The notes under the pieces were generated by a model. The model was not told the origin of the DNA, made no database searches, and was given only the letters and a program-made list of their open reading frames with translations. From positions 1-60,469 of the forward strand of contig CACNWH010000005.1 of the NCBI GenBank assembly GCA_902624105.1: 60,469 bases of DNA, in the 5' to 3' direction. Position 1 is the stretch's first letter, and each line of letters starts with the position of its first letter. This DNA comes from an uncultured Prochlorococcus sp. GTDB lineage: Bacteria; Cyanobacteriota; Cyanobacteriia; PCC-6307; Cyanobiaceae. Both the position numbers and the translations under genes were made by a program. Below, piece by piece: positions 2,215 through 45,513 of this stretch.

Positions 2215-2853
2215 ATGTGTGGAAGATTTGAATTGAAAACTAAATATGATTCCTTACCAAAAATCTTAAAAGAGGAAATTCCACCTGGATTTACTAGTAA
2301 ATATGAGACTCAAAATCTTATTAAGCCTACTGATCCAGTTTTAGTTATAAAAAATGAAGGTAAAATGAAAACAACATTTATGTATTGGGGCTTTATATCT
2401 CCATGGGCAAAGGATCCTTTTAACAAATCAACTCCAAGACCATTCAATGCTCGTTTAGAGACAGTGGGAGAAAAAAAATTATTTCAGTCTAGTTGGAGGT
2501 ATAAAAGATGTTTGATACCTGCTACTGGTTTTTTTGAAAAAGGATTTCGAATAAGAAAGAAAAATTATGGAACTTTTTGGCTAGGCGGAATTTGGTCGAG
2601 ATGGTTTTCTGCTGATGGGGCAGAGTTAGAAAGTTTTTGTGTCTTAACAACAGATCCAAATAGATTAATAAGACCTCTTCACCACAGAATGCCTTGTGTT
2701 ATTCCAAATGGATTTGAAGAACTATGGACGAAAAATTTCCAAAATGCTGATGAACTTAACCGATTACTTCATATTATAAAATGGTGGTCTCCAGAAGATT
2801 GGATAGTGGAAAAAATAAATAATTCTTCTGTCTGTCAAATGAGCTTATTTTAA
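2215..2853 (+). CDS. yedK: SRAP-domain protein (HMCES/YedK family)
   Basis: This is a SOS-response-associated peptidase-family protein. Family members form a thiazolidine DNA-protein crosslink with abasic sites in single-stranded DNA through Cys2 after removal of Met1. The sequence begins M-C-G-R-F, giving the catalytic Cys2. It also has the conserved FNARLETV segment and the RCLIPATGFFE segment with the active-site glutamate, and HHRMPCV near residue 160. At 212 residues it has normal full length. It is next to clpS on the same strand, with no evidence for a shared operon beyond spacing (39 bp). Confidence 0.9.
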   Translation: MCGRFELKTKYDSLPKILKEEIPPGFTSKYETQNLIKPTDPVLVIKNEGKMKTTFMYWGFISPWAKDPFNKSTPRPFNARLETVGEKKLFQSSWRYKRCLIPATGFFEKGFRIRKKNYGTFWLGGIWSRWFSADGAELESFCVLTTDPNRLIRPLHHRMPCVIPNGFEELWTKNFQNADELNRLLHIIKWWSPEDWIVEKINNSSVCQMSLF

Positions 2854-2892
2854 ATAGTAATAATATAAATTTTAAATACAAAAAAATTAAAT

Positions 2893-3198
2893 ATGGAAAT
2901 TTTCAATACAGTTTCTAATCTAGATAGTACAGTTTTGGATCAAAATACTGCAAAAAGAAAATATCCAGAGGCTAGGGTAATCGTACTTGATGATGATTTC
3001 AATACTTTTGAACATGTAGCAAATTGTCTTGAGACTATCATCCCAGAAATGAGTAGAGAAAGATCTTGGAATCTTGCTGTTAAAGTAGATAGTGAAGGTT
3101 CGGCAGAAGTATGGAGAGGCCCCCTTGAACAGGCAGAGCTGTATCATCAGCAACTTCTAAGCAAAGGATTAACAATGGCACCAATTGAAGAAGTATAA
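2893..3198 (+). CDS. clpS: ClpS-type Clp protease adaptor
   Basis: This is an adaptor that delivers N-degron substrates to ClpC/ClpP in the cytoplasm. Residues 25-50 carry the ClpS core VIVLDDDFNTFEHVANCL, corresponding to the classic N-D-D-x-x-T motif, here D-D-D-F-N-T. The C-terminal half has the QAELYHQQLLSKGLTMAP helix typical of ClpS. The 101-residue length is normal. The Asn-to-Asp change in the loop suggests it may be a ClpS2-like paralogue with altered specificity; that is inference. Confidence 0.88.
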   Translation: MEIFNTVSNLDSTVLDQNTAKRKYPEARVIVLDDDFNTFEHVANCLETIIPEMSRERSWNLAVKVDSEGSAEVWRGPLEQAELYHQQLLSKGLTMAPIEEV

Positions 3199-10048: not shown

Positions 10049-10831
10049 ATGAAAATCATTAAAAATCTCAGGTCGCTTCCTGGCGATTCTCTGAAAGTTA
10101 TTCGCCGTACCCCGCCACTTGTCTTCGCAATGGCAGTTTTATCTCTTGGAGGATTTATAGGTGCTTCCACTGTCCTTGTGAGAGGGTTCAGGATGGTTGA
10201 AAATACGATAACTGTTACGGGTGCAAGTACTGAAAGTTTTGAAAGTGATATGGCAAAATGGTCTGTCCAGGTTAGGGCTTCAGGGAAGACACAGATTGAT
10301 TCATTCAACAAACATAAACAGTCCATGAAAACCACAATGGACTTTTTGAAAGCAAATGGAATTGTGGATGATTTTAAGCAGGAAGTTTACATTGGACCTG
10401 CGAGTATAAATGAACGTACAACAAAGAATCCAAAAACAAATGAAATCATAAGAACTGAATGGATCACCTACCAGAATATTGAGATTCAAAGCAATGATGT
10501 CTATAGGATTCAGGAGACCCATAGCAAGATAACGGAGCTTTTAGGTAAAGGGGTAAGAGTTAGTCCGAGCTCACCACAATTTACTTATTCGCGACTTGCA
10601 GATAAGAGAGTTGATATGCTCGCAAAAGCTGCGAAGGATGCTCGAGTAAGAGCCGAAGCTATTGCTTTTCAGGCAGGATCTGAAGTAGGTGGTGTTAAGA
10701 AAGTTAACACCGGGGTTTTCCAGATCACAGTTCCAAACTCAACTAGAGTTAGCAGCTGGGGTTCTTACGATACCACAACTATAAAGAAAGATATAACAGC
10801 TGTTATGGGAGTAACTTTTGCAGTTAAGTGA
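10049..10831 (+). CDS. SIMPL-domain membrane-anchored protein, copy 1
   Basis: This is a 260-residue protein. A basic N-terminus (through R-R-T-P-P-L) precedes one transmembrane helix (~25-45), then a periplasmic SIMPL (DUF541) domain beginning ITVTGASTESFESDMAKWSV. SIMPL proteins are envelope proteins often linked to stress tolerance; their activity is not settled. The C-terminal half has the usual K-A-A-K-D-A-R-x-R-A-E-A-I-A helix. The gene converges on a 31/63-residue gene pair. A second copy, about 89% identical in protein (29 differences by my count), lies inverted at 20714-21496. Confidence 0.88.
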   Translation: MKIIKNLRSLPGDSLKVIRRTPPLVFAMAVLSLGGFIGASTVLVRGFRMVENTITVTGASTESFESDMAKWSVQVRASGKTQIDSFNKHKQSMKTTMDFLKANGIVDDFKQEVYIGPASINERTTKNPKTNEIIRTEWITYQNIEIQSNDVYRIQETHSKITELLGKGVRVSPSSPQFTYSRLADKRVDMLAKAAKDARVRAEAIAFQAGSEVGGVKKVNTGVFQITVPNSTRVSSWGSYDTTTIKKDITAVMGVTFAVK

Positions 10832-14138: not shown

Positions 14139-14183
14139 TGCCCTCGTCGGGACTTGAACCCGAGACCTCACCCTTACCAAGGG
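14139..14183 (-). repeat. Distal attachment site: tRNA-Thr 3' duplicate
   Basis: 45 bp identical to 45432-45476, the anticodon-loop-to-3'-end part of tRNA-Thr(GGU). It breaks off at the anticodon stem, so no tRNA is made. It marks the far end of the integrative element. Confidence 0.93.
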
Positions 14184-14250: not shown

Positions 14251-14272
14251 AATTAGTGCAAAAATTAGTGCA
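14251..14272 (+). other. Paired 9-bp sites, left end of large element
   Basis: Two copies of ATTAGTGCA, 12 bp apart start to start, lie 67 bp inside the left 45-bp repeat. A nearly identical pair lies at 45315-45336 in the same orientation. They are candidate arm-type recombinase or excisionase binding sites, or an operator shared by the two flanking genes. Confidence 0.75.
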
Positions 14273-14296: not shown

Positions 14297-14638
14297 ATGC
14301 ATAAAAGAGCAACCAAACAAGAAACTGACTTAAGAGTTGCACATGCTGCTGGATTAGTTGCTGAAGGACAAGCCTACTCATCTATTACTTCCCTTGTTTC
14401 CGAAAAATATGGAATCTCAAGAAGAAGAGCAAGGCAGATCACTTCTAATGCTTATCTTTTGCTGAAAGATGATATTGAGGAGGGGGACTTAAATCGTCCT
14501 GAAATGACAGCAAAATTAGTATGCACTCTAGAAACTGCAATGTTTAGAGCAATGCAAGAAAAACAATATTCAGCAGTTGCAAGTAATGCAAAAGTTCTTA
14601 TGAAATTAGTTGGATTAGAAGCAAAAGTAAAAAGTTAG
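14297..14638 (+). CDS. Terminase-small-subunit-like DNA-binding protein
   Basis: This is a 113-residue, mostly helical protein. An HTH-like part (SSITSLVSEKYGISRRRARQ) is followed by a C-terminal helix pair (L-E-T-A-M-F-R-A-M-Q-E-K-Q-Y-S-A-V) ending K-L-V-G-L-E-A-K. This layout resembles phage small terminase or similar packaging-recognition proteins. If right, it could direct packaging of the element by a helper phage, as in phage satellites. It could equally be a regulator. It starts 25 bp after the paired 9-bp sites and ends 4 bp before the tRNA-Pro fragment. Confidence 0.5.
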   Translation: MHKRATKQETDLRVAHAAGLVAEGQAYSSITSLVSEKYGISRRRARQITSNAYLLLKDDIEEGDLNRPEMTAKLVCTLETAMFRAMQEKQYSAVASNAKVLMKLVGLEAKVKS

Positions 14639-14642
14639 AGCG

Positions 14643-14689
14643 GGTGCTTTGGGAGCACTAGGTCGCAGGTTCGAATCCTGTCGCCCCGA
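14643..14689 (+). repeat. tRNA-Pro(UGG) 3' half, left end of nested element
   Basis: Anticodon stem and loop (GTGCTTTGGGAGCAC, anticodon TGG), T-arm (GGTTCGAATCC) and 3' acceptor to GCCCCGA are present, but there is no 5' half or D-arm. The first 37 bp (14643-14679) recur exactly at 17057-17093. This is an attachment-site remnant, not a working tRNA. Confidence 0.88.
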
Positions 14690-14740
14690 TCAGTCATAGC
14701 AATGGAAGTCAGATATTGCATAAAAATGACCGCAGCGAAA

Positions 14741-17056: not shown

Positions 17057-17093
17057 GGTGCTTTGGGAGCACTAGGTCGCAGGTTCGAATCCT
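17057..17093 (+). repeat. tRNA-Pro(UGG) fragment, right end of nested element
   Basis: 37 bp identical to 14643-14679. It is preceded by GGGGCGTG (17048-17055), which resembles a tRNA-Pro 5' acceptor, and followed by CAATGAC instead of the 3' acceptor. The D-arm is missing, so it is a decayed tRNA or att scar, not a functional tRNA. Confidence 0.85.
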
Positions 17094-21722: not shown

Positions 21723-24059
21723 TTAATCTATATTATTTTTTATACTTTTAAAAAATTCTATAAGCTTTTTGAATCCTGAGCTATACATATTTTTACCCCT
21801 TTCATCTAGCTCCTTATTTTCGGGGACCGATAACCAATGATCCTTAAGTTCATTTAAATCCTCATTCCTTACTAATTCATCAACTGATGAATAGTTAGGT
21901 TTCATCTTTAATAATTCATTTGTTATTTTATAAACCGCACTCGTATATTTGCCAATACTATTTTCACTTAGTTCTGTTTCTTTTCTCATCCATTCAGAAA
22001 ATGGTGCATCATACATAAAAGTTTTTGCGAAACTCAATCTATTCCAAATTTTTATATCGATATTTGCATAAAAGTCACTCAAATTAATTGAACTAAAAAC
22101 TTCTTCATTAATAAATTTAAAAATTCTTTCAGTAGGAACTTTGCCTTGTGCAATTTCTTGAAATTCTGCAATTATTCTTTCATCACTCATTCCTAAAGCT
22201 GATAAAACAGTAACAATTTGCTTGAATGCATTTTCTTGAAGAGAACTTTTATCTTCTTCATCTAGTACAACAGGCAAAATTATATATCCAAAATTCTTAT
22301 TTTTTGATAATCTCATCGCTCTCCCTGCTGCTTGAACAATATCAACTTTGCTATGTTTAGGATCAGCAAAAAGAACAGCATCTACTTCTGGAATATCAAC
22401 TCCTTCGGTTAAACATCTTGCATTTGTAATTAAGCTTGGTTCTTCATATGTGAATCTATTTATTACTTCTGACCTTATGCCAGTGCTAAATTTCCCCGAG
22501 ATATGAAAAGAATGCAAATAACCATATTTTTCGCCTAATTTATTAACTTCTTCATTTAATTTGCAAAAATCTTTTGCCCTTTTGATATTCCTATGAAAAG
22601 AAATAATATGCTTTATATTTTTTTCTTTTATTATCTTTCTTAAGGTTATTAATGCTGCAAATGTTGAAGCATCTGCCTCGAAAGAAAATAATCTATTATC
22701 CGAAGATACTATTTCATTATTATCTATGAGTTCTTGTATCTGTTTTTTAGAAATTAGGGCTGAATAGATTCGATAATCAGAAAGTATAGGGGGATTTTGT
22801 TCTAGGGCGGATTTAAATGAAAATTGATCAACAACTTTCCCATAAATTTCTTCATCATCCATAGAAACAATATTCTCAGAATCGCCTTTAAAAACTCTTT
22901 CTGTCGCTGTCATAAATAATCTTTTTTTTACTGAAATATTTGAATCATAAAGAAGTTGAGCAAAAGGTTTATTTTTATTCCCAACTGTTTTATGTGCTTC
23001 ATCAAAAATACCAATATCAAAAATAATATTTGAATTTTCTACTGACTCAATTAATTTTTTACCACTTTGATAAGTAGTAATGACAATTTTAATTTTTTGG
23101 GAATTTTTTTGAAGAAAATCAGAAATTAATTCTTTATCAGTGTTTACTTCAATTCCTAAATCAAATTTATTTATTGCAGGATCATCTAAATTTTTTACAT
23201 CATCATCACTACAAACAGCTATCCAATCAATTTCTATACCTTCACACATAAATTCTCTGGCCCAAGTTTTTAAAGTTTGCTTTACGAGCTGAAGACTTGG
23301 AACAACTATTAGAGCATTATTCCCTTTCATGTTTCTAAAGAACCAATATCCAGTTAAACTTTTTCCTGAGCCACAGGGATGAATTAATTTACCTCTTGAT
23401 TTATTTTTAAAATAAGAATTACAGTTCTCAAGAGCTATTTTTTGATGTTCTCTAGGTTCGTATTTCTTAAGGTTTACTTTCTGATTATCTAAAATTGAAT
23501 GAAAATTTTTAAATTCTTCATTGTCTAATTGTGAAAAATCGGAATAAGTTATAAAGCCTAATTTTTCTTTATGAACAGTAGAAATTTTTTTACTTACTTC
23601 TAAAGCAGATGAACTTATTATCCTGTGTCTGATTTTTTGGTAAGTTACATCTCTTTCAGTAATACTAAAAAAAGTACTTACTTCGTCATAAGAAATATTC
23701 TTATGGACATCATCATGATACTTGCATTGAATTGCCCAAATATTACCTTCATTTGATTCTGCTATAAAATCAACGCCAATTTCAGGCCTTTGTAAATCTA
23801 ATGAATCAAAAACTTTATGAGGGACATTAGAGTGATGCCATAAATTAGTTAATTTGCTAGAAAAAATTGGATTATTTATGAAATATAGGGAAGTTAATAA
23901 TTCAAATACATCACCCTTCTTTTTATTGTTTACAGGATCAGATCCAAGTTTACTAATCTGAGCCGAAAATTCATCCCAATTATGAGATGAAAGCACCAAT
24001 TCTTTTGTTTCATGCTTTTTAAAAATATCAATATCTTGTACTGATCTTGCAGAAAGCAT
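21723..24059 (-). CDS. Restriction-nuclease-DEAH helicase fusion
   Basis: This is a 778-residue protein. The N-terminal Mrr-like nuclease domain has E53, D97 (I-G-V-D-F) and Q111-C-K113. A SF2 helicase follows with Walker A H-P-C-G-S-G-K-S (~227-234), Walker B D-E-A-H (353-356), and motifs V/VI T-E-G-V-D-I-P-E-V-D-A-V and Q-A-A-G-R-A-M-R-L. A helical C-terminal domain follows. This resembles the nuclease-motor half of single-chain type I-like (type ISP) enzymes but has no methyltransferase. It could be a stand-alone defence gene or use the neighbouring PglX mark. It lies downstream of brxL, separated by the GIY-YIG remnant. Confidence 0.8.
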   Translation of the reverse strand: MLSARSVQDIDIFKKHETKELVLSSHNWDEFSAQISKLGSDPVNNKKKGDVFELLTSLYFINNPIFSSKLTNLWHHSNVPHKVFDSLDLQRPEIGVDFIAESNEGNIWAIQCKYHDDVHKNISYDEVSTFFSITERDVTYQKIRHRIISSSALEVSKKISTVHKEKLGFITYSDFSQLDNEEFKNFHSILDNQKVNLKKYEPREHQKIALENCNSYFKNKSRGKLIHPCGSGKSLTGYWFFRNMKGNNALIVVPSLQLVKQTLKTWAREFMCEGIEIDWIAVCSDDDVKNLDDPAINKFDLGIEVNTDKELISDFLQKNSQKIKIVITTYQSGKKLIESVENSNIIFDIGIFDEAHKTVGNKNKPFAQLLYDSNISVKKRLFMTATERVFKGDSENIVSMDDEEIYGKVVDQFSFKSALEQNPPILSDYRIYSALISKKQIQELIDNNEIVSSDNRLFSFEADASTFAALITLRKIIKEKNIKHIISFHRNIKRAKDFCKLNEEVNKLGEKYGYLHSFHISGKFSTGIRSEVINRFTYEEPSLITNARCLTEGVDIPEVDAVLFADPKHSKVDIVQAAGRAMRLSKNKNFGYIILPVVLDEEDKSSLQENAFKQIVTVLSALGMSDERIIAEFQEIAQGKVPTERIFKFINEEVFSSINLSDFYANIDIKIWNRLSFAKTFMYDAPFSEWMRKETELSENSIGKYTSAVYKITNELLKMKPNYSSVDELVRNEDLNELKDHWLSVPENKELDERGKNMYSSGFKKLIEFFKSIKNNID

Positions 24060-24142
24060 TTCTTCAAAACTTTTTAATTAATATACATAGAAACAAATAT
24101 AAAAACAAAATATAAGCTACTAGAAATTTTGAATTTATTTAT

Positions 24143-24340
24143 TCAAAAATGATAAGGCCTATGGTCATTAACCTTAAATCTTATTTGTGATTCACCAATC
24201 GATGTATATTTATTTGCTAATTCGGGATCAAATTTCAATAAAGCATTTTTTGTAATTTGTCTCTTTTTTTTTCTTTTCCAAGAACATATATCCTTTATTA
24301 CATGGTTTTCACTAATTAAAACTTTTATTTTTTTGAATTT
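24143..24340 (-). pseudogene. Second copy of the GIY-YIG gene 3' end
   Basis: The minus-strand frame encodes ~65 residues ending in a TGA at 24143-24145. It aligns with the C-terminus of the GIY-YIG protein (37629-38669): I-K-D-I-C-S-W-K-R-K-K-K, Q-I-T-K-N-A, Q-I-R-F-x-V-N-D-x-R-P-Y-x-F. The DNA has diverged (for example L-K-F-D for L-K-Y-D), so it is not a fresh duplication. With the intact gene it brackets the BREX operon as a direct repeat. Confidence 0.85.
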
Positions 24341-24347
24341 TAGTTGT

Positions 24348-26456
24348 CTATGTACGAATAAAAGTTATTTCTGAGCCCTTAGTTAGTCTTGCTTCTTGTA
24401 AATTAGTTTCTGCATTTAAAACTGAGCTTTCGAAATATTGAAAAATATCAAGGCCACGATCCAGACTAATTTTCCACCCATGATCAGTAGTTATGCTGCG
24501 AGCATGGAAATTATTACTGGCATCAAACTCAAATGTAAAAGGTGTAGCAGTTTGGGAGAATGAATCCTTAATTTGATTAAGATTATCCATTTGCTTTTCA
24601 AATTTTTCTTTATTTTCGTTTTCGGCACTTGTAATTAAATGGATTTTTACTTCATCACCATCTGGAGTTAATTCATTAACTATGCGAAGAAATTCAACCA
24701 AATTACGCATCTGATAGAAAGCACGAATATAAGGATCTCTTATAATTATTTCTTTACTACCTAATATATATTCTCCAAAAATTTTTTTATAACTCCAGTT
24801 TTTACTATTTTCCGGGATGACAATATGACACTCTTTTGGAGTTTTTGATATTTGAGATAAATCGAGATTTTCAAATTGATTTTTGGCATCCCCTTTGGAA
24901 TTAGTTTTTTCATCAGTTTCTAGAGTTTTTTCAGGAAACTCGGATTCTTCAGAGCTTTGTTTGAATTTTGAAAATTGTGGGTATTGTATTTCTTCGGGAG
25001 TACGCACTTGTTTTGAAACTTCACTATTTAGTGGTTTATATATGAATTCATTTGAGTTGAAGGTTGAATCAATTCGAAGAATTTGATCTCTTACGCGTTT
25101 GCGACATTCCATTGAAAATTCGAGTAATTCTTCTATCTCTTCCTTTGTCGCTTTTTGATCAGGATGAATAATTTTCATTAAACCAGAAAAGGTTTTCTCA
25201 AAACCAGTTTGGTCCCTTGTAGAAACTTCTGATATAATTTCAAATTCTTTTTTATAAAGTGATGTATAGTCTTCAGTTCTAAGATGCTTTAAAACCTCGG
25301 CGATATAGTCAACAACGAAGCCATAACTTGAAGTAAATAGGTCATGACGAACAGGTTGAACTTCCCATCCTGGGCTAAAAGCATGAATACGATCTAAAAA
25401 AGCAGAATCTATATATTTATCAGGTAATGGTTCATAAAAATGCGAATGTTTAAGCATATAGGCAACAGACTTTTGTGTATTACCCATAAAGACCATAGAT
25501 GCTTCAGCAGATAATTGTTCAATACCTCTTGAGAAAGTTCTATTCGCCATATAATTTTTCATTATGTCAACAAGTGCTTTATCGACCTTCTTATCTTTAC
25601 CTGCAAATTCATCAAAGCAAATGCAGTCCCAATAGCCTACTAATCCTATTTTCCCATTGGAGTTACTTACAAATAGCTTAGGACTAGTTACTTCTGAACC
25701 TGAAATTAACATCCCGTGAGGGGAGAACTCTGCATAAACGTGAGATTTGCCAGTCCCTTTTGGGCCAAGTTCTATAAAGTTATAATTGCGCTCACAAAAA
25801 GGTATTAATCTTATCAGAGAAAGTAGCTTAGCTCTACGCGTAAATTGCTCAGGATTAAAACCAATGCTTTGCATTAATACATCAATCCATTCATCGGTAT
25901 TAAAATTAGATCTTGCTACTAAAAATTCATCGTAGTTAACGTTAGCAACTTGTATTGGTTTAAGACTTGCTATTTGCCAAGGACTTGCTTTCGGTTCTAT
26001 TGGTAAATCATATTCAACATCTGATATGGCCCAAATCCCACCGACAAGAAGCTTTGGAAATCTTTTAACATAAGAATCATCTATTGGAACTTTCTTGATT
26101 CCGAGGTTAGTAAATTCTGCTTGATGGAAACCCTCCTTGTCGTTAAATGAGACTATTAATTTATCAATTACCTTGTGATTACCGCGGTCTTTTATAGTGG
26201 ATTTGATTAACTCGGATTGGTTCCTATGTACATAATGTTTTGACAATATACGTCTAACTGTTTCTAATCCTTCTTGAATTTGTTGTGGATCGTCTGTTGC
26301 GCAATGTTGTCCTAGTAAGTATTCAAGTACGTAAGTTGGTACTACAGCATTCTGTTTGAGTTCAGCAGTAAGATCCTTTCTTACAACTAAACCAGGAAAA
26401 TATTCTAAGATCTTATTATTCAGAACCTTTTGTGAAGAAGAAATACTTGTAGTCAT
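24348..26456 (-). CDS. brxL: BrxL-family BREX AAA+ protein with MIT_C-like C-terminus
   Basis: This 702-residue protein is the last gene of the BREX operon. The N-terminal two thirds is the BrxL ATPase: Walker A GPKGTGKS (231-238), Walker B C-I-C-F-D-E-F-A-G (~278-286), with the surrounding G-S-E-V-T-S-P-K-L-F-V. BrxL is needed for phage exclusion but not methylation in studied type 1 systems. After a charged linker (~495-560), residues ~560-700 resemble the C-terminal phospholipase D-like domain of MITD1 (T-T-D-H-G-W-K-I, R-G-L-D-I-F-Q). I see no Lon protease Ser-Lys dyad motif. Start is ATG, 6 bp after the pglZ stop. Confidence 0.9.
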   Translation of the reverse strand: MTTSISSSQKVLNNKILEYFPGLVVRKDLTAELKQNAVVPTYVLEYLLGQHCATDDPQQIQEGLETVRRILSKHYVHRNQSELIKSTIKDRGNHKVIDKLIVSFNDKEGFHQAEFTNLGIKKVPIDDSYVKRFPKLLVGGIWAISDVEYDLPIEPKASPWQIASLKPIQVANVNYDEFLVARSNFNTDEWIDVLMQSIGFNPEQFTRRAKLLSLIRLIPFCERNYNFIELGPKGTGKSHVYAEFSPHGMLISGSEVTSPKLFVSNSNGKIGLVGYWDCICFDEFAGKDKKVDKALVDIMKNYMANRTFSRGIEQLSAEASMVFMGNTQKSVAYMLKHSHFYEPLPDKYIDSAFLDRIHAFSPGWEVQPVRHDLFTSSYGFVVDYIAEVLKHLRTEDYTSLYKKEFEIISEVSTRDQTGFEKTFSGLMKIIHPDQKATKEEIEELLEFSMECRKRVRDQILRIDSTFNSNEFIYKPLNSEVSKQVRTPEEIQYPQFSKFKQSSEESEFPEKTLETDEKTNSKGDAKNQFENLDLSQISKTPKECHIVIPENSKNWSYKKIFGEYILGSKEIIIRDPYIRAFYQMRNLVEFLRIVNELTPDGDEVKIHLITSAENENKEKFEKQMDNLNQIKDSFSQTATPFTFEFDASNNFHARSITTDHGWKISLDRGLDIFQYFESSVLNAETNLQEARLTKGSEITFIRT

Positions 26457-26462
26457 TTTTTA

Positions 26463-29006
26463 TTAGAAGTCCTCGAAGTCATTGCCAAATGGTTGAAGTA
26501 ATTTTATTTCCCTTGTTTGATAGGGAACTGGTGTTTGTATACCTTCTTTCAGTTGTTCAAATTTTAATTCCAATATCTCGTTATTGTAACCTCCTGCAGT
26601 ATTTGTTAAATTGATTTCAATTTCTTTTTCTCTTTCTCGAGGTTCTATTGCCTCTGACTCTAAAGATACAATTTTTGGAACAGAGAGATGAGCATTATCT
26701 TTTTTTGCTATTACACTTATTTTAAGCTTCAGAGGCAAGCGACTTTCTTTCTTACAGGGTTCATCCTGAAATAGAAAAAACTTTATGCGAGGAGTAGTTA
26801 TTTTAACCGGGACTCTTAACAATTCTGCTTTTACTTGTTGTATTTCTACTTTAACAATCTTTTTTAATCTAATTACTGGAATGACAATTTCTTGAAGGGA
26901 AGTCCCTCCATGAACAAAGCGATTCCCAGAACCTGATTTTGGAAATCGATTAAGTCCGAGAGGGAAAGCTGCATCCCATTCTCCCTCTAAGCCCAGTTGA
27001 TTTGCAGAGAAAATCTTTACTCCTGACTCGGCCTTTATATTATTTCCCATAGCAAATCTTCTCTTCTTAATACTCATATCATCGGCTGCAGGGAAGTTAG
27101 AACGATCGTTTTCGTAGACAGGTTCTTGTTGAAAAAGGAATCCATGATCTGCTGTTATGATCACTTGGCTACCTTTTAAGCTACTTATCTTTTTTAGTAT
27201 CTTCTGAAGATCTTCGAAAGAATCCTCTACTGCTTCGCAAGTATCAGCCTCACTCTCAAGCTTATCGCTAATACGATCAATGCGATTGTGATAAACAACT
27301 ATAAGATCATTATCTAAAATAATCTGTGCAGCTTCTTTGGTTGTGGAGAGGTTGAGAAATTCTTCAGATTGAATCGCTTTTGATCGACCCTTGTGGTATT
27401 CCTTAAAAAATTTATCACGATTTTCAGTACCTGAAACGCTCTTACCATCTACTATCGCGGGTGCATTTGGATCTGAAATATTAATATTAATTTTATTCCC
27501 GGGCAGAAGAGAGGCCATCCCTAGTTGTGTGTATGAAGGTAATACACCAAGTAATGCATTTATCTTTGCGTCCCAACTCTTACTTGATTGGCTGTTTAAT
27601 CGGTCAACAAAATCATGGGCCGCTTCGTAGCGAAGAGCATCAGATATTACAACAAATAATCGCTTAAGTTTGGAAGAACTTAAAGGGGTATGAATGTAGG
27701 TTTTATGAAAAGATTTTTGTGAATGTAAATTAACTGAACTCCAGTGGCTTAGATCTTTGACATGATCACTCCACTGATTTGTAAGTGGACGCAATGCGTT
27801 ATTTAAATATTGATTCTCAACCCATTCTTTCAAGGGCTTCATTAATCCTGGCTGGCCATAGCTTCGAGTGTGAAAGACACAACATCGATATGTTCTATCT
27901 ATTCGCCACCAATTATTACAGTACTGTTGAAGACCATTTTCAAAACTTTGTACTTTTAAATCATTTTCAATTATGAGATTACGGAGTTCAACAGCCAATC
28001 TTATAGCATCATATGCGTGACTATGCTTCTTATACCAAAAGGAATTTTTTCTTAGATTTATTCTTTCAAGGAGTTCAGAACTATCGTTTAAATTACTAAA
28101 TTGTTGAATTAATTTTCTAATACAGAATAGTTCTATTAGTTCATAGCAATCGTCTTCTAGAGGATTAAATTCATCTTTTTGATCTAAAAGATTATGTTCA
28201 ATCTTTAGTAATTCCGAAAGGAATTTACTCCATTTTATAAATGAGTTATCATTTTGCCTGCTATCCTTCCAATCACTTAAAAAAACTTGAGCATGACTTT
28301 CAAGGTGTCCATTACTACCTAAGCAACTAACAGTATTGAATAATTGCACTGCAAAATCACTTAAACATGGATCATTATTTTGATATCCAAACTTATTACT
28401 TACGGCCTCCCAGAAAAATTCTTTGAGTCCAAAAGCACCAAATAACTCATCAATTTGATCAGATGAATTCGAATCAGTTGGATCATAGATACTTAAGGCA
28501 TGTAGCAATAAATGATCAATCGATGGTGACTGATTTGTAATTACAGCTAGCATTTTTAATCGGACAGCTTTTTCATCATCATTTGGGTGAAAAAGTTCTT
28601 TAAGTTTTTTACAGCGACTTGGTGCTCTAAAGAAGGATTTATGTTTCTGCGCTAGTTCTTTGAACTCAAGAGGAAGTCCAGCCATTTGAATATCTAAGGA
28701 TGCACGATCAGCTTTAAATTCATAGCCAGCAAGTAAAACATCAAGTAACCAATTATTTTCATCCGTTGGTTTGGAGGATCTAAAGTAGAGAAGATATTTT
28801 TGGTCTGAGGATGCTCGGCTGATTTTAACTTTTACAGAAAATTCGTTCCTATCAATAGAATATTTTGTGATATTTGATTCTTTGTAACTATCAAATTCTT
28901 CAGTCCATTCACTTTCCGAGTCATACCAAAAAACTATCCTATGATTATTAAAAGCGTTATTGATACTTTCGTGAATTCGTTTAATTGAGTTAGGCGTTTG
29001 AGTCAT
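26463..29006 (-). CDS. pglZ: BREX alkaline-phosphatase-superfamily protein PglZ
   Basis: This 847-residue protein is the hallmark BREX component. The alkaline-phosphatase-superfamily core is visible: metal-site strand LFVVISDALRYEAA (~residue 450) and I-I-T-A-D-H-G-F-L-F (~615). The N-terminal ~400 residues are helical and the C-terminal ~200 are beta-rich, as in type 1 PglZ. It lies between the GP88-like gene (17 bp gap) and brxL (6 bp gap) in one operon. It probably acts with PglX in the methylation and exclusion complex. Confidence 0.93.
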   Translation of the reverse strand: MTQTPNSIKRIHESINNAFNNHRIVFWYDSESEWTEEFDSYKESNITKYSIDRNEFSVKVKISRASSDQKYLLYFRSSKPTDENNWLLDVLLAGYEFKADRASLDIQMAGLPLEFKELAQKHKSFFRAPSRCKKLKELFHPNDDEKAVRLKMLAVITNQSPSIDHLLLHALSIYDPTDSNSSDQIDELFGAFGLKEFFWEAVSNKFGYQNNDPCLSDFAVQLFNTVSCLGSNGHLESHAQVFLSDWKDSRQNDNSFIKWSKFLSELLKIEHNLLDQKDEFNPLEDDCYELIELFCIRKLIQQFSNLNDSSELLERINLRKNSFWYKKHSHAYDAIRLAVELRNLIIENDLKVQSFENGLQQYCNNWWRIDRTYRCCVFHTRSYGQPGLMKPLKEWVENQYLNNALRPLTNQWSDHVKDLSHWSSVNLHSQKSFHKTYIHTPLSSSKLKRLFVVISDALRYEAAHDFVDRLNSQSSKSWDAKINALLGVLPSYTQLGMASLLPGNKININISDPNAPAIVDGKSVSGTENRDKFFKEYHKGRSKAIQSEEFLNLSTTKEAAQIILDNDLIVVYHNRIDRISDKLESEADTCEAVEDSFEDLQKILKKISSLKGSQVIITADHGFLFQQEPVYENDRSNFPAADDMSIKKRRFAMGNNIKAESGVKIFSANQLGLEGEWDAAFPLGLNRFPKSGSGNRFVHGGTSLQEIVIPVIRLKKIVKVEIQQVKAELLRVPVKITTPRIKFFLFQDEPCKKESRLPLKLKISVIAKKDNAHLSVPKIVSLESEAIEPREREKEIEINLTNTAGGYNNEILELKFEQLKEGIQTPVPYQTREIKLLQPFGNDFEDF

Positions 29007-29023
29007 AGTTATAGATTTGTTCT

Positions 29024-29800
29024 TTAAGCTTTAAGGCCATTTTTTTGTGCCAAAGAAAAGGATTTGATGCCCTGCAGTCTTAGAAGTCGCGGAATATTAT
29101 TAGCCACAATACCTATTTTATTTGTTGGGAGCAGGGCGGCCATGAGATCAGATTTCTCCTGATCTTCGTAACCTGCAGCGGTGAGCGCTTGCAGGTTTGG
29201 GAATATATCATCATGACGATCTAGGCTTGTATCAATAAGCTCATCTTCCTTGCCACCCATTGAAAAAATTACGATAAAGTTTTTCGGTATTTTGCCTTCT
29301 TTGTTTGCTTTTTTAAAATCAGATACCTGCTTAGAATAAGTGTAAAATAAAATGTTTGGATTGTTATCAGCAATCTCAAGCCAATCTAAAAGATATCGGT
29401 AAGAGAAAAAGTCGCCAGCGTCATGAATTCTGACAGCTTTTCCTCCTGAAGTGACCCACCAGTCAAAGTCCTGTCTAGTTTCCCAGTCAAAAGAATGTGC
29501 CTCGCCTGTTGGTCTAAATTTTTTCGCGTTGAGTTCATTTTGGAGTTTTTGCTTCCAGGCAAATGGGTCACTTATATATTCTTCCAAGTTTTTTGTATGC
29601 GCGTTGACGACAGGTCTAAACGTATATCGCCCAGTCCTCGCGTAACACAATGCTGCACAAATCCCAGCATTGGGACAGGTTTTTATACGACCGAACTTGT
29701 CACTTTTGGCCACCAATGCGGGAATTGTCCATACAAAAATACCCAAACCTGCAAGCTCGGAGTTTCCTTTTCGGAGTAGTTCCCGTTTTTGTGTGCTCAT
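29024..29800 (-). CDS. Phage GP88-like protein inserted in the BREX operon
   Basis: This 258-residue protein resembles the phage gene-product-88 family. It has an N-terminal cysteine cluster C42-P-N-A-G-I-C48-A-A-L-C52-Y with an aromatic-rich start, and the mid-protein signature V-R-I-H-D-A-G-D-F-F-S, then W-L-E-I-A and I-L-F-Y-T-Y-S-K. The family's activity is unknown to me; the three cysteines could hold a metal or iron-sulphur cluster. It is not a standard BREX gene. The spacing (10 bp from pglX, 17 bp to pglZ) shows it is an integral operon member. Confidence 0.8.
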   Translation of the reverse strand: MSTQKRELLRKGNSELAGLGIFVWTIPALVAKSDKFGRIKTCPNAGICAALCYARTGRYTFRPVVNAHTKNLEEYISDPFAWKQKLQNELNAKKFRPTGEAHSFDWETRQDFDWWVTSGGKAVRIHDAGDFFSYRYLLDWLEIADNNPNILFYTYSKQVSDFKKANKEGKIPKNFIVIFSMGGKEDELIDTSLDRHDDIFPNLQALTAAGYEDQEKSDLMAALLPTNKIGIVANNIPRLLRLQGIKSFSLAQKNGLKA

Positions 29801-29810
29801 GTAATCATAG

Positions 29811-32800
29811 TCAAGCCTGAAATTTTGCCAGCACTTTTTGGAGTTTGGAATAATTGACCTTTACACCATCATTAAGATTTAGTTTGATGCGTTGTTGGGC
29901 AAGTGGTAACAATGCTTCTTTTTCCCAATCTTGACATTCTTTGATTACCTTATTGATCCTATCTGCCTCTTTACGAGCTGCTATTTGCTCACGCTTTGAT
30001 AAAGAGTCTTTGACTTGATTAAGATCTAATGAAGTTAATCTTGCTTCAAGTTTCTGAAGATAAGGTCGGAAGTAATCATTGAGCACTTGCAGTAAGGTCT
30101 CTGGCGTATAACGATGTAGGTAGATTAGACAGGCAAAACCAGCTTTGGGACTTTGCACCATCCAATAGATAGGGCGTTTTTTATAAGTTTGGATATGATC
30201 TTTATAAAAATCATTTAGGAAGTATTTACGAATATCCTTACCTATTGAAGTCTCTATAAAGCGTAAATTCTCTTCAAAATTATCATCTCCGAATGTGATT
30301 CTTAAAAACTTTTTAAATCTTGCGGTTATATCGTCTTTGAACCAATCTAAATTAAAAATAGGGATTATATTATCATCATCTGGTTTAAATAATGGATTAG
30401 GAAATCTCTTTAAAAAATCTTCTAAATTCTCTCCTTGATTGGCAATGATTAAACCAGGTTCCTCTAATGAATAGCGACCAAACATACAACCAACGGAATA
30501 AGAAATAAATTCTTTTAATGTATCAGATTTTAATTTATCTTCTTGAAATTCTTGAATAATTTTTTCTCGATACCTATTTCTTGGATTTGAGATCAAAGAA
30601 ATTTCGTTAATTGAGATATTTGGTGATAGCTCATCTTGAAGTCCATATGCTTCAATAAATACTTTATTATTAGATTCTTCTAACTCAAGCATTTCATCAG
30701 TATTTAATTGCCAAATTTTTCTAAGACTATCATAGGTTTCAGTTAATTTTTGAGAATCTTTTTTTATTTTTAAAAGTGGCAAATCACAAAAATCCCAAGA
30801 TGTTTCATAAGAATCCCAATCAGACTTTGAAATTTTAATAAGTCTTTCAATAGTGCTATTTTCAAATTTAGATATATCTCTTTTAAAAGGTAAATTTAAT
30901 ATATTACCTAATTTAAAATCTAGATTTGGAGCAAGAATTTTTAAAATTGCTGTTGAAACTTTTGAATTAAGTTGTCCCAAAATAGGGAGAAGTTGTTCAG
31001 GATTTTTAGAAAACCCCATTGGACCTTTAGCGTCAAATTTAAATCCACAAGATACACTTCGAACTGCAAAACCACCCGAGATACCAGACCATGTGAACCC
31101 TTTTTTAAAGGCAAATTCACCATTATAGTTATGAGATCTAATTCTTCCAGTATCAGCGTCTTTAAAATTTTTTAACAATTCTCCATTTTTATGCCAATTT
31201 ACAATGTATTCAAAATTTCCGTACCAGCGTCTAAACGATCCACCCTTTAAGTATGGGAACCAGGTGTGTGTTCCATTTGATGTATCTTCAATATTTTTGT
31301 AGTTAAATCCAATTTTTTCAAAATTGACTTCATGCCAATATCTCATAAAAAGATCATTATTACCAGTTATTAATCCCTCTCTGGTATCAATAAATTTAGT
31401 TAAGTTTGGATATGTTTGAAAATTATTATAGAGTTTATCGCTCACCCAATATGCAATAGGATAACCTGGTATTTTTAGAAAATCATTAGAAGATATTTTA
31501 TAAAACCACTCACAATTTTTATTTTTAATTGCCTCTTTAGTCATGTCAGATTTTTCATTTTCTGACATTCCATCCACAAGACGTAAGAATTCACCTTTAT
31601 GTTCAATATTATGAGAATTTTGGAAAACAAATGCAGTTGTTGAAACTATCTCGCCCCCTATAGAGTCAAACCCTCTTGTACCAATATGTGCCATTGTTAA
31701 GAACTTAAAATTTGACAATAGTTTTGAACGAAGTTTTTCATATCTAGCAATAAACATCCATACTTGCATATTAATCATGGAAAAATAACCAGATTTAAGA
31801 GTTAAATTTGCTGAACGCTCTAAAAACATTGCAAACAAATTTAATTTGCTAAGAGGGTAAACTTTCTTTGCAAATTCAGATAAATTGCTGTTAAATCCAT
31901 TATTTCCCATATAAGGAGGGTTAGTAATTACGATATGATATTTTTTTTGAAGAAAATCTGACTGATTAATTAACTTTAAAACCAAATTATGAGTTGTATT
32001 TAAGAAAAGATTGCTTGATATATTTTTTTTAATAAGTATTTCAAGAATCTCATGTGGATTTTTTAAAACTGGTTCTATAAGAGAACCAAAATTTTCACAT
32101 TCTTCAAATTGTCTAAGAGCAGTTTGGAAAGTACTTGTAAATAAATCTATTCCTACTTCATCAACGTACTGCTTAATTTGATTATTGTTAAATTTAATAT
32201 TTTCTAATGCACAGATTCTTGGTTCTACAGGCTTACTAAAAAAGTTTCTTTGTTTTTCTCGTGCTTTTATTATCAATGAAAAGTAAGATAAATCTGCTGC
32301 TCTTTTATCAATTTCTATGCCATATAAATTATTCTTAAGAATTAGTTCAGGAATAATATCCTCTTGGTAACCTTCTTCTTCATATATTGAAAATAAGAGA
32401 TCAAAGCAATATATGAGAATATGACCTGAACCACAAGCAGGATCACAAATCTGAATTTCTTCTGGTGTATTTATCTTTAAAAAATCAGTTTCTGGTATTT
32501 CTGGTGGAACGAAATGTTCCATTTTTTTTATTAAATTTGATTTAGGATTATTTAACATCCAAAGACGTCCAAGAGAATTTTCTACTAAATATTTGACAAT
32601 CCATTTCGGTGTGAATAATTGAGTAAAAGCAGGAATATCTTCTGATACAACCTTTTTATTTTTTTTATTTAGAGCGTTTCTAATTTCTTCTTTTTTTTCA
32701 GAAATATAAAACTGATATAACCATCCAATTATTTCTACGTCTTCGCAGTCTTCATCTAATATCTCTTTGCGAAAGTTTCCAGCAATGGAGTTCTCCGTCA

Positions 32801-33344
32801 ATAAATCATCTGGAAGTAAGAGTTCAGTTGCATCGTCAAGGGCTTCGAATAAATCTGGTAATAGGTGGTGATAGGAGCGGCAAGCCGCAAGAACTAATTC
32901 TCTATAAACCTCCGCTTGAGGATCGCCTCCTTGCGAGGAGGTTGGAATCTGATTATCTAGAATCTGGTTAAGCCGCTGCTCGTCGATGAACTTCTTTAAC
33001 TCGGCGGGTAAACTTCCTGAACGCATCAGCTTTAACAGTTCAGGTTGGTTTTCGCCTTGTTCAGCAGGCATCAAAACTTTGCATGCAAAAGGATGCCAGC
33101 CTTTTGCATCGAGATAACGTAAAGCGCATAGGCGATTGAACCACGTGTATGCGACCTTCTCAATTAATTGATCTCTATTTTTATCTTGTTGTTCGCGTAG
33201 ATTTTCTATTTGCTTTGCATAGGTAGTTAGCGTATCTGGGGTTTTGGTATTGATCAATAAATCTAGTTTTCGGCTCACTCCTTCCATAAGCTGCCTTCGC
33301 ATGGCTGGAGCAAAGATTTTAAGAACACTAGTATTTACAGCCAT
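29811..33344 (-). CDS. pglX: BREX adenine methyltransferase PglX
   Basis: This is an 1177-residue N6-adenine methyltransferase that marks host DNA at the BREX motif. Visible features are the N-terminal conserved region, SAM motif I C-D-P-A-C-G-S-G-H (300-308), the catalytic motif N-P-P-Y (475-478) and a long C-terminal specificity region. Length matches type 1 PglX. Base composition is mosaic: 31 of 60 bases are G or C at 32881-32940 (N-terminal part) but 11 of 60 at 31921-31980 (catalytic to specificity part). This suggests recombination or amelioration. It starts 46 bp after the brxC stop. Confidence 0.95.
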   Translation of the reverse strand: MAVNTSVLKIFAPAMRRQLMEGVSRKLDLLINTKTPDTLTTYAKQIENLREQQDKNRDQLIEKVAYTWFNRLCALRYLDAKGWHPFACKVLMPAEQGENQPELLKLMRSGSLPAELKKFIDEQRLNQILDNQIPTSSQGGDPQAEVYRELVLAACRSYHHLLPDLFEALDDATELLLPDDLLTENSIAGNFRKEILDEDCEDVEIIGWLYQFYISEKKEEIRNALNKKNKKVVSEDIPAFTQLFTPKWIVKYLVENSLGRLWMLNNPKSNLIKKMEHFVPPEIPETDFLKINTPEEIQICDPACGSGHILIYCFDLLFSIYEEEGYQEDIIPELILKNNLYGIEIDKRAADLSYFSLIIKAREKQRNFFSKPVEPRICALENIKFNNNQIKQYVDEVGIDLFTSTFQTALRQFEECENFGSLIEPVLKNPHEILEILIKKNISSNLFLNTTHNLVLKLINQSDFLQKKYHIVITNPPYMGNNGFNSNLSEFAKKVYPLSKLNLFAMFLERSANLTLKSGYFSMINMQVWMFIARYEKLRSKLLSNFKFLTMAHIGTRGFDSIGGEIVSTTAFVFQNSHNIEHKGEFLRLVDGMSENEKSDMTKEAIKNKNCEWFYKISSNDFLKIPGYPIAYWVSDKLYNNFQTYPNLTKFIDTREGLITGNNDLFMRYWHEVNFEKIGFNYKNIEDTSNGTHTWFPYLKGGSFRRWYGNFEYIVNWHKNGELLKNFKDADTGRIRSHNYNGEFAFKKGFTWSGISGGFAVRSVSCGFKFDAKGPMGFSKNPEQLLPILGQLNSKVSTAILKILAPNLDFKLGNILNLPFKRDISKFENSTIERLIKISKSDWDSYETSWDFCDLPLLKIKKDSQKLTETYDSLRKIWQLNTDEMLELEESNNKVFIEAYGLQDELSPNISINEISLISNPRNRYREKIIQEFQEDKLKSDTLKEFISYSVGCMFGRYSLEEPGLIIANQGENLEDFLKRFPNPLFKPDDDNIIPIFNLDWFKDDITARFKKFLRITFGDDNFEENLRFIETSIGKDIRKYFLNDFYKDHIQTYKKRPIYWMVQSPKAGFACLIYLHRYTPETLLQVLNDYFRPYLQKLEARLTSLDLNQVKDSLSKREQIAARKEADRINKVIKECQDWEKEALLPLAQQRIKLNLNDGVKVNYSKLQKVLAKFQA

Positions 33345-33390
33345 GATTATCCAAGAACGCCAGTTGATATCAATCTAATTATTTGCATCT

Positions 33391-36861: not shown

Positions 36862-37472
36862 GAGATTAAAGTCCTGAAGGAATCAAGATTTATAGCTCTG
36901 TAATGAGCTGTCTCAATTTCGCAAGTCGATTTTTTCCCAAATAATCTTAGGAAAGATCCTTCATCAGATTCTTGATTATATTCACCAGGAAAGAAAATAA
37001 CGAATGGATGTCTTACCATAGCTGGTTGCAATGCTTCAAGAATAGAATGAGTTCTTAAAAAAGGATATATTCGTCCTAATCCTGTAATTAAACTTACCTG
37101 GTTTTCTTCTCCAATTTCTTGAATTAGCTTAGGCACAAGTGCATCATTTGGATCGGCAATGTTTCGGAGGTCATCAAGAAGATCACTTTTGCTCCACGTA
37201 ATTTCATCTTTAATTACGTCTTCCAGATAACCCTTTTGTTCTAATATTTGAATTACTAATTCAAACAAGTCAATATGTTTAACTCGTACTCCTTTCTTCT
37301 CTAAAACTTTTTTAATTCCTCTAACTATTCGAAGAATATCATCTTCATCACAAGGGTTATAGGTCTGAATAAATAAAGGTAATTCTTTTGCAATTCCACT
37401 CATTTCAAGAAAATCCTGTTGTGAAAGTATATTGTGTAAACGTTTATCTAGATCTTTAGTAGTTTTATTCAT
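36858..37472 (-). CDS. brxB: BREX protein BrxB (DUF1788)
   Basis: This 204-residue protein is the first gene of the BREX operon proper. It shows the DUF1788 pattern: an early L-P-L-F-I-Q-T-Y-N-P segment, E-D-D-I-L-R, the V-S-L-I-T-G-L-G-R-I-Y-P-F strand-turn, and P-F-V-I-F-F-P-G-E-Y near the end. BrxB is needed for BREX function but its activity is unknown. Type 1 operons normally place brxA before it. Here the upstream gene is a GIY-YIG protein 156 bp away and no brxA is seen. Confidence 0.92.
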   Translation of the reverse strand: MNKTTKDLDKRLHNILSQQDFLEMSGIAKELPLFIQTYNPCDEDDILRIVRGIKKVLEKKGVRVKHIDLFELVIQILEQKGYLEDVIKDEITWSKSDLLDDLRNIADPNDALVPKLIQEIGEENQVSLITGLGRIYPFLRTHSILEALQPAMVRHPFVIFFPGEYNQESDEGSFLRLFGKKSTCEIETAHYRAINLDSFRTLIS

Positions 37473-43497: not shown

Positions 43498-43662
43498 TTA
43501 TTTTAAATTGTTTTTAAAAACTACTAACCATTTTAAAAATTCTTTCCAATCTTCAGCCTTACAAAAAGCTATGTGAATTCTGTGTCTTTGATCTACTGAA
43601 TAACACTTATGGTTCATTATCTTTGCCAAAGTTCTTGAATGGTATGGTGTTCCATCATTCAT
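43498..43662 (-). CDS. 54-residue small basic protein downstream of integrase
   Basis: ATG to TAA encodes 54 residues (YHSRTLAKIMNHKCYSVDQR, ending with a W-K-E-F-L-K-W-L helix). Its start overlaps the end of the zinc-ribbon gene by eight bases (ATGAATGA), indicating translational coupling in an integrase-zinc ribbon-small protein operon. It could be a small regulator. Confidence 0.55.
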   Translation of the reverse strand: MNDGTPYHSRTLAKIMNHKCYSVDQRHRIHIAFCKAEDWKEFLKWLVVFKNNLK

Positions 43663-43953: not shown

Positions 43954-45303
43954 CTAAACCTCAATCCTATTTTTTAAATGTCTTTCAAATGCTTTTTCTA
44001 AACAAAGTTCTGTTGTGTAAGAACCATAAAAAGAATTATGCGTTTCTACAGAATGACCCATGGCAGCAGCAGCATCTTTTACTGATATTGGGATAGTGGA
44101 ACCCTTATGACATTGATACGCATATCTATGTCTCAGACTATAAGGAGTTATATCAGGATTAGCTTTAATGATTTCTATCCATACTTTATTCCTCTCGATT
44201 AACTGCCTTAGTGCTTGTCCCACATCACCATATCTATTTTTATCTTTTACCATTTTTATTTGATTTATGACTGGTATAGGCAATGTAATTTTTTCTGATT
44301 CAAAAAGCTTAATAAGTTTTTTGCCAAGATTCTTTTTCTCAATAAGATCCATAGGAAAAACTCTTCTATCCTCTTTTTTAGCTTTTGTATTGATATTATT
44401 TTTGATGTTGCCTACATATAATTTTCCATCAACAACTCTAAGAACCGCAAGTTCAGATAGTCTCAGGCCAAAAATTGAAATCAAACCTACGGCCAGAAAT
44501 AATGAAGAATCTCTTGATTCAAGATCATCTAATAATCTGAGTAAATCATTTTCTTCAATATATGGAGTTAATTTATCTTGTTTGGTTCTATTAGATTTTC
44601 CAATTAGTTCTTTTCTATAGTCTTCGCTTGGTGGTTGCCACCTTTTTTCGTTCTGTGAATGTCTTTCAATTCCATATCTTAAAATTTCACACCAAGCATT
44701 TATGTATCTTTTCTTTTGGTTAGGTTCTATTTCAGTAAGGTATTTATCTGATAATTTCTTTATTAGTTCAACTCCTGTATTAGGTGCGGGAGTATTGTTC
44801 ATTACTTCTAAGAACCTACTAATCCTTCTAGCCCAATCTTTTTCAGTTTTACTGGTAAGACCTTGTTTTGTTTGCATGAATTGATCAACCTTGGATACTA
44901 CATTTAAATATGCTTTTAAATCCTTTTCATAGTTTGCATCCTTTTTATTTATGGGCCTTATCAATAAGAAATCATTCCAACTTTTATTTGGTTGTTTCCT
45001 TGATTCTCCAATGAATTGAGCCTTCCATCTTCTAGTGGCCTCTTTAAGAGTTAGATTTTTTTCAACTATTAATGGTTTTATAAATTCGATAGCTTTAAGA
45101 ATTTCTATCCCTGAGGTTTTCTTCCATTCTATTGGTAAGGTTTGAGAAGTTCTTTTATTGGCAGAACCTAATCCTTCGTTATAAACATACAAAAGTTTGG
45201 TTCTGCCACTATTTTCGCCATTCACCCTAAATCCACGACCAAAATTAGTGCAGATATTTTTTCTTAACTCTTTTTCCCAAGAAGTGCAGTTAACACTTGT
45301 CAT
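43954..45303 (-). CDS. int: Tyrosine recombinase (integrase)
   Basis: This 449-residue phage-type integrase has a C-terminal catalytic domain with the first Arg in G-L-R-L-S-E-L (~residue 280), H-x-x-R box L-R-H-R-Y-A (~391), G-H-S near 420 and the nucleophile tyrosine in F-Y-G-S-Y (~427). An N-terminal SAM-like arm-binding region lies at ~145-230. It sits beside the tRNA-Thr target and its ATG is 11 bp from the paired 9-bp sites, so it may repress itself. It most likely catalyses movement of the 31-kb element, and possibly of the nested one. Confidence 0.93.
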   Translation of the reverse strand: MTSVNCTSWEKELRKNICTNFGRGFRVNGENSGRTKLLYVYNEGLGSANKRTSQTLPIEWKKTSGIEILKAIEFIKPLIVEKNLTLKEATRRWKAQFIGESRKQPNKSWNDFLLIRPINKKDANYEKDLKAYLNVVSKVDQFMQTKQGLTSKTEKDWARRISRFLEVMNNTPAPNTGVELIKKLSDKYLTEIEPNQKKRYINAWCEILRYGIERHSQNEKRWQPPSEDYRKELIGKSNRTKQDKLTPYIEENDLLRLLDDLESRDSSLFLAVGLISIFGLRLSELAVLRVVDGKLYVGNIKNNINTKAKKEDRRVFPMDLIEKKNLGKKLIKLFESEKITLPIPVINQIKMVKDKNRYGDVGQALRQLIERNKVWIEIIKANPDITPYSLRHRYAYQCHKGSTIPISVKDAAAAMGHSVETHNSFYGSYTTELCLEKAFERHLKNRIEV

Positions 45304-45314
45304 TATAAAAATAT

Positions 45315-45336
45315 AATTAGTGCAAATATTAGTGCA
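45315..45336 (+). other. Paired 9-bp sites, right end of large element
   Basis: ATTAGTGCA twice, 12 bp apart, 95 bp inside the right 45-bp repeat and overlapping the presumed integrase promoter. It matches 14251-14272 at 21 of 22 positions and in the same orientation. Confidence 0.75.
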
Positions 45337-45431
45337 GAATAGCTATATTTTCGATATATCTAGACATATCCACTTATTTTATAATTCTACCTAATTATTT
45401 ATGATTCACTGTGCTGCAGTCAATCTGGGTA

Positions 45432-45476
45432 TGCCCTCGTCGGGACTTGAACCCGAGACCTCACCCTTACCAAGGG
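45432..45476 (-). repeat. Proximal attachment site within tRNA-Thr
   Basis: 45 bp identical to 14139-14183. Identity ends at the anticodon stem, which places the crossover between the anticodon loop and the 3' end of the tRNA. Confidence 0.93.
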
Positions 45477-45503
45477 TGTGCTCTACCGCTGAGCTACAAG
45501 GGC
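45432..45503 (-). tRNA. trnT-GGU: tRNA-Thr (anticodon GGU)
   Basis: 72 bases fold as a normal cloverleaf: acceptor GCCCTTG with CGAGGGC, anticodon loop CTTGGTAAG with GGT, T-arm GGTTCAAGTCC, discriminator A, CCA not encoded. Its 3' 45 bases are the integration target of the element to the left, so the present 3' half came with the element. Confidence 0.95.
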
Positions 45504-45513
45504 ATTATTAAAG

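Follow-up and report, generated by a model that had tools for sequence, protein, structure and literature searches.

Two 22-bp doublets near the ends of a 31-kb island of an uncultured Prochlorococcus sp. are best explained as cognate arm-type sites of the lambda-type tyrosine integrase that the element itself encodes, and we place the probability of this assignment at roughly 0.9. The island lies within the window, by which we mean the whole 60,469-nucleotide stretch of DNA that was analysed. A first-pass annotation of this DNA had raised arm-type sites as one possibility, and this proposal is now strongly supported, at the level of sequence, by the anatomy of the element, by the fixed spacing between sites and core in its relatives, and by lineage-specific sequences that are shared by the two ends. 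A further copy of the site within the integrase gene forms a fourth basis for the assignment.

The doublets are oriented on the same strand and differ at only one of 22 positions, as had been annotated, and they sit on the inner sides of an exact 45-bp direct repeat derived from tRNA-Thr (Table 1). This repeat and the intact tRNA-Thr gene are additions to the original observation. The island is measured between the two core copies, and its integrase gene adjoins the intact tRNA-Thr gene. Short repeated sites that are distinct from the core sequence flank the att core on either side, as is typical of arm-type sites. An empty site was seen only in part, in another genome (G356): the SIMPL-domain gene located at window positions 10049-10831 has a homologue there, about 1.2 kb from tRNA-Thr, but the window flank holds other island DNA.

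Table 1. Features of the island and their positions in the window.
Feature	Coordinates	Strand	Comment
Partial att core	14139..14183	+	45-bp copy, 3' part of tRNA-Thr (GGT), at the distal element end; same core in relatives
Distal arm doublet	14251..14272	+	AATTAGTGCAAAAATTAGTGCA; two TTAGTGCA units with a 12-bp period; 69 bp from core
113-aa ORF by the distal doublet	14297..14638	+	phrog_34910 (function not established); relatives in 43/201 genomes
Tyrosine integrase (int), 449 aa	43954..45303	-	phrog_216; ATG at 45303
Third, single arm-site copy in integrase ORF	45244..45252	+	encodes Cys-Thr-Asn on the minus strand
Integrase-proximal arm doublet	45315..45336	+	AATTAGTGCAAATATTAGTGCA; 95 bp from core; 11 bp upstream of int ATG
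10-bp tandem GATATATC/GACATATC	45353..45370	+	between proximal doublet and core; candidate excisionase (RDF) site
att core within intact tRNA-Thr gene, integrase end	45432..45476	+	exact repeat of the partial core; core shared with relatives
Intact tRNA-Thr (GGT), integration target	45431..45504	-	ARAGORN

The island also carries a BREX-like defence cluster (window 21723-37472; BrxL, PglZ, PglX, BrxC and BrxB by PADLOC models), which is adjoined by a type IIG-like restriction-modification gene. Separately, a partial tRNA-like fragment (Rfam tRNA, below the gathering score) follows the distal ORF at 14626-14690 and is seen again at 17057-17093, and contigs C17 and C30 of this genome carry further copies. 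These fragments are possibly relics of other att sites.

The sequence ATTAGTGCA occurs six times in the window, compared with 0.47 expected copies, and none of 100 shuffled sequences reaches this count. Four copies form the two doublets, one resides in the integrase ORF (45244) and one is unrelated (59502). When as many as two mismatches are allowed, the doublet pattern is found at only these two places in the 1.10-Mb genome (1,103,991 bases in 49 contigs, approximately 67% complete). Random occurrence elsewhere in the genome, which the first-pass annotation had named as an observation that would count against its proposal, was therefore not seen.

The distance between doublet and core is kept in relatives of the element, with the caveat that several of the loci counted below are close relatives and thus not independent. 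At the distal end, the doublet is located exactly 69 bp from the core at 12 of 13 distinct partial tRNA-Thr cores, including those of elements with a diverged spacer. The sole exception (G313) has a different layout, with the integrase on the partial-core arm. For the other end, we scanned 44 distinct intact tRNA-Thr loci among the fetched loci, 15 of which are linked to the integrase type of the window. A doublet exactly 95 bp from the intact tRNA-Thr was found at 12 of these 15 integrase-linked loci versus none of the 29 others. The three exceptions are L006 (the same contig as in G394), G152 and G313. One 12-bp unit has been lost from the proximal doublet of L006, and G394 accordingly has an intact int with a single proximal unit. 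In G152, where the integrase is reduced to residues 1-61, one proximal unit is mutated and shifted by 1 bp. Two of the 29 other loci (L167 and L170) carry a doublet of the TTAGTGCG type placed 12 bp further out than 95 bp. Conservation across eight non-redundant distal arms is highest in the repeats, with identities of 0.81 and 0.77, compared with 0.48-0.69 for the spacer and 0.34-0.39 for the DNA beyond.

Several loci with unusual architectures were noted. At L084 (G313), which has TTAGAGCC sites, the integrase lies on the opposite arm, where its neighbour is the partial core and not the intact tRNA. Truncated integrases at L091 (G152; approximately 10230-10420) and L075 (G388; approximately 2740-3050), in which the first 61 and 40 matched residues remain, respectively, still have proximal arm doublets. 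At L198 (G421, contig C31, near 6170), a single core is flanked by a distal-type doublet and, across from it, by a decayed integrase-proximal arm, a layout that suggests tandem elements at tRNA-Thr.

Matches to the integrase were found in 244 of 400 genomes of the family. Where record titles name relatives, these are Prochlorococcus and other picocyanobacteria; no relatives were found in IMG/VR or in phage records. The fetched loci yielded 82 integrase ORFs, of which 77 have a usable anchor and fall into 44 clusters at 70% identity. A doublet was defined as two 9-mers at a spacing of 12 bp with at least 8/9 identities, located no more than 400 bp upstream of the anchor. By this definition, 34 of the 44 cluster representatives carry a doublet upstream of int, versus 2.15 or 1.93 +/- 1.15 in shuffled sequences, and perfect doublets are found in 24 clusters versus 0.2 in shuffles. 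Spacings of 9, 11 and 13 bp are seen in only six or seven of the 44 clusters. A second peak is evident at 10 bp (18 of 44 clusters versus 1.7 in shuffles), and in 10 of the 14 representatives having both repeats, the 10-bp repeat is located 24-38 bp further upstream than the doublet; its candidacy as an excisionase site is by analogy only. For 59 of the 82 integrases, a doublet with at least 8/9 identities falls in the interval that runs from 120 bp upstream of the chosen start codon to 40 bp downstream of it.

Two rival explanations can be set against these findings. First, the similarity of the two ends could reflect chance, or an inherited duplication in which both ends derive from one ancestral sequence. 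Flanking sequence is indeed common to close relatives, which are therefore not independent observations. However, the ends of the window element have only short matches in common apart from the core and doublet, the 12-bp period recurs in diverged clusters, and the shuffles and the restriction to two genomic places speak against chance, such that we regard the likelihood of this explanation as negligible. Second, short direct repeats of fixed period could look like the iterons of a replication origin in a circular element. Each arm carries only two or three units, however, whose distance from the core is fixed and which adjoin an integrase rather than a replication gene; an origin of this kind is hardly credible. 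Chance and replication iterons were thus rejected as candidates on the basis of the shuffles, the two genomic places, the fixed core spacing and the neighbouring integrase.

The sequence of the doublet varies by lineage, with TTAGTGCA, TTAGAGCA, TTAGCGCA, TTGGCGCA, TGTGCTCAA and TGGTCACTC among the examples. Searches for distant copies were made with the 61 of 77 anchored loci whose doublet has at least 8/9 identities, and recurrence was accepted at 16 or more identities of 18. The doublet of a locus's own lineage recurs far away in the fetched stretch at 25 of the 61 loci, compared with 51 of 2660 comparisons (1.9%) in a control wherein doublets of other lineages were swapped in, and 2 of 61 for the reversed pattern. 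Many of the recurring loci have a tRNA-derived direct repeat just outside both copies, and several different tRNAs are represented. A strong second copy was not found at 36 of the 61 loci, where many contigs or fetched stretches end early. The expectation, set out with the original proposal, that the doublet varies with the integrase is thus borne out by the comparison of own with swapped copies and by the site types described below: the sequence of the site goes with its cognate integrase. As a separate observation, six loci with TTAGTGCG-type sites (L209, L211, L212 and L214-L216) have an extra partial third unit by the doublet upstream of int, which reads TTAGTGCT, or TTAGTGAT in L216.

Correlating doublets with integrases, as the first-pass annotation had recommended, reveals lineage-specific sequence but cannot separate specificity for the N-terminal domain from linkage. 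Doublet similarity tracks N-terminal domain identity when catalytic-domain identity is removed (partial r 0.50), and not catalytic-domain identity given the N-terminal domain (partial r -0.07). However, windows of flanking DNA give r values of 0.30-0.52, similar to that of the doublet, and therefore linkage to the 5' end of int is sufficient to account for the signal. When only low-identity pairs are considered, there is a modest peak at the doublet (r 0.34 versus 0.09-0.18 in most windows further upstream). Given that adjacent DNA produced the same signal, we dropped this correlation as proof of specificity; the end-to-end match and the in-gene copy are stronger evidence.

Sites for an excisionase (RDF) or for an element-encoded repressor, rather than the integrase, would likewise be found in attL and attR near int. 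RDFs can bind repeated sites, and neighbouring small ORFs with no assigned function, such as that at 43655-43951 (98 aa), might encode such a protein. Nevertheless, the doublets are present on both arms, and the separate 10-bp-period repeat between the proximal doublet and the core is a better fit for an RDF. Moreover, the doublet type follows the integrase lineage across different tRNAs and element lengths, although linkage of int to its proximal arm weakens this point. We therefore consider RDF or repressor sites very unlikely, and we favour integrase arm-type sites.

The in-gene copy in the window is a single ATTAGTGCA that spans codons 18-20 of int. Among 50 integrases tested with a narrower doublet search than that used for distant copies, 15 carry an exact unit of their own doublet within the 110 coding bases that follow the anchor; with swapped doublets this was so in 13 of 2240 comparisons. 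Of the 26 loci in the clade of the window, 25 were scored (L220, with a disrupted N-terminus, was excluded). Judged by contig position, two pairs, L008/L210 and L009/L213, are apparently the same genomes in two collections, and so about 23 distinct genomes are represented. The in-gene site tracks the arm-site type for all five types in this clade, where the counts are of loci and not of independent changes. Three types equal the unit of the proximal doublet: TTAGTGCA (13 loci; Cys-Thr-Asn), TTAGTGCG (6 loci; Arg-Thr-Asn) and TTAGAGCC (1 locus; Gly-Ser-Asn). The TTAGAGTG type (3 loci; His-Ser-Asn) equals one of two proximal units as well as the distal arm (G067). The TTAGAGCG type (2 loci; Arg-Ser-Asn) equals the distal arm only (L009), its proximal doublet, TTAGAGCA, being one base different from the distal and in-gene copies. 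At all scored loci the asparagine codon is AAT, the threonine codon ACT and the serine codon TCT. The odds are about even that the replacements at residues 18 and 19 (Cys-Thr, Arg-Thr, Arg-Ser, His-Ser and Gly-Ser) have been driven by matching of this DNA site to the arm doublets, such that one DNA-binding domain and three separated DNA sites change together.

The integrase has the conserved R, K, R, H and Y set by which tyrosine recombinases are recognized. Residues R281, K301, R391, H417 and Y426, which we take to be the catalytic residues, are invariant across 52 aligned integrase sequences. The predicted structure (mean pLDDT 86.3) has a lambda-Int-like fold, and its best Foldseek match is full-length lambda integrase (E 8.5e-7), with a Z score of 14.7 over 318 residues and an rmsd of 19.7 that probably reflects domains placed differently in the model. 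The N-terminal domain is modelled as three strands and a helix, with an extra first helix. When this domain was modelled alone, no significant fold match was obtained: the HPI arm-binding domain reached only E 0.67, and comparison with the arm domain of a P4-like integrase gave a non-significant Z score of 4.1 (rmsd 3.8 over 57 residues).

The doublets could in principle serve a dual role, acting both as integrase arms and as operators of the two end genes, and thereby coupling excision to the expression of both. Several features are compatible with this proposal on the integrase side. The int ATG lies 11 bp from the proximal doublet, as first annotated, and a promoter-like site is present at 45423-45394, upstream of this doublet on the int strand, although it is a consensus match only. 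Furthermore, IntS of KplE1 represses its own arm-overlapping promoter (PMC2951348), and a similar model exists for ICEMlSymR7A (PMC11963761). Autoregulation of int through the proximal doublet is therefore plausible by position and analogy, and we give this half of the operator proposal about as much credence as its negation.

The distal half is improbable. The distal ORF does start close to the doublet, separated by 24 bp rather than the 25 bp first given, and it occupies the same place in G331, G388, G395 and G399. However, the doublet lacks this neighbour in G394 and L009, and the ORF is approximately 260 bp away in G067; the doublet keeps its 69-bp spacing to the core in these three despite the missing or displaced ORF. 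The DNA near the distal doublet yielded no promoter-like site. Furthermore, the terminase-like identity assigned to this ORF in the first-pass annotation is not supported, given that its only assignment is phrog_34910 and that it has no Pfam family, phage-record match or solved-structure match. A doublet that is the operator of a terminase-like gene thus finds no support, and a role coupling both end genes is, as a whole, unlikely.

Taking the doublets as arm-type sites, we infer the binding, recombination and autoregulation steps as follows. The N-terminal domain of Int would bind the 12-bp-spaced TTAGTGCA units on both arms, and the core-binding and catalytic domains would act on the tRNA-Thr core. 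The excised circle is predicted to carry, in order, the proximal doublet, 95 bp, the 45-bp core, 69 bp and the distal doublet. By gripping both island ends via the doublets, Int could carry out excision or integration. With the proximal doublet and the third copy placed after the putative int promoter and ahead of most of the ORF, Int bound there may well also reduce its own expression, as IntS does in KplE1.

Comparable architectures have been described. The attP of Cluster J mycobacteriophages has a 44-bp tRNA core with paired direct-repeat arm sites on each side (PMC3706429), and it resembles the island in having a tRNA core between arm-site pairs and arm-like sites at the start of int. However, the Cluster J units are of 10 bp, the sites at the int start are inverted and attP is 3' of int, whereas the island has a 12-bp period and its int starts inside the arm. 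The Cluster J authors report no systematic difference of sites with N-terminal domains (PMC3706429), in contrast to the island sites, which differ by integrase lineage. For KplE1, it has been demonstrated that an integrase gene with an arm-overlapping promoter is repressed, and the authors predict such autoregulation for most tRNA-linked integrases (PMC2951348). Its intS/attL region resembles the island in having a tRNA-associated integrase at an att end, and its promoter-arm overlap has a candidate counterpart in the island, where the position fits and the promoter is a consensus match. Repression, demonstrated for KplE1, is for the island suggested by analogy, and the island also has an arm-site copy within coding sequence. 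ICEMlSymR7A is similar in having several P/arm-type motifs and RDF binding upstream of an arm site near intS, comparable to the candidate RDF site of the island, and integrase feedback has been proposed, but its integrase is different and its attP, of 283 bp, holds five arm motifs of 10 bp each (PMC11963761). More broadly, arm-binding domains are considered a general mark of the tyrosine recombinases of mobile elements (PMC8138268).

The island is also like the tycheposons of Prochlorococcus in being tRNA-associated and carrying a tyrosine recombinase, as described second-hand (PMC10872708, PMC11389934, PMC10187409). Tycheposons are defined by a tRNA target, a tyrosine recombinase and a length of 4-200 kb (second-hand, from PMC10872708), and the window element, with 31 kb, tRNA-Thr and a tyrosine recombinase, was compared by this second-hand description only. 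An integrase family associated with tRNA-Phe and tRNA-Cys has also been described in picocyanobacteria (PMC10187409). In the literature, of which our coverage was partial, we found no account of arm-type sites in cyanobacteria or within an int coding region that matches this case. The kind of structure is known, and what is new is the fixed geometry, the in-gene copy that matches the arms and the occurrence of lineage-specific sites across the family.

Much of the variable gene content of Prochlorococcus and Synechococcus is believed to be exchanged via tRNA-linked islands. A lineage-specific arm doublet can be used to pair an integrase with the far end of its element, and it can reveal elements that have decayed or lack an integrase; G395, for example, has a distal arm, and no relative of the window integrase is among its listed matches. 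Dozens of natural site variants with cognate integrases offer a system for learning how arm-binding domains read DNA. The in-gene site represents a small case in which the evolution of a DNA site has apparently shaped protein sequence.
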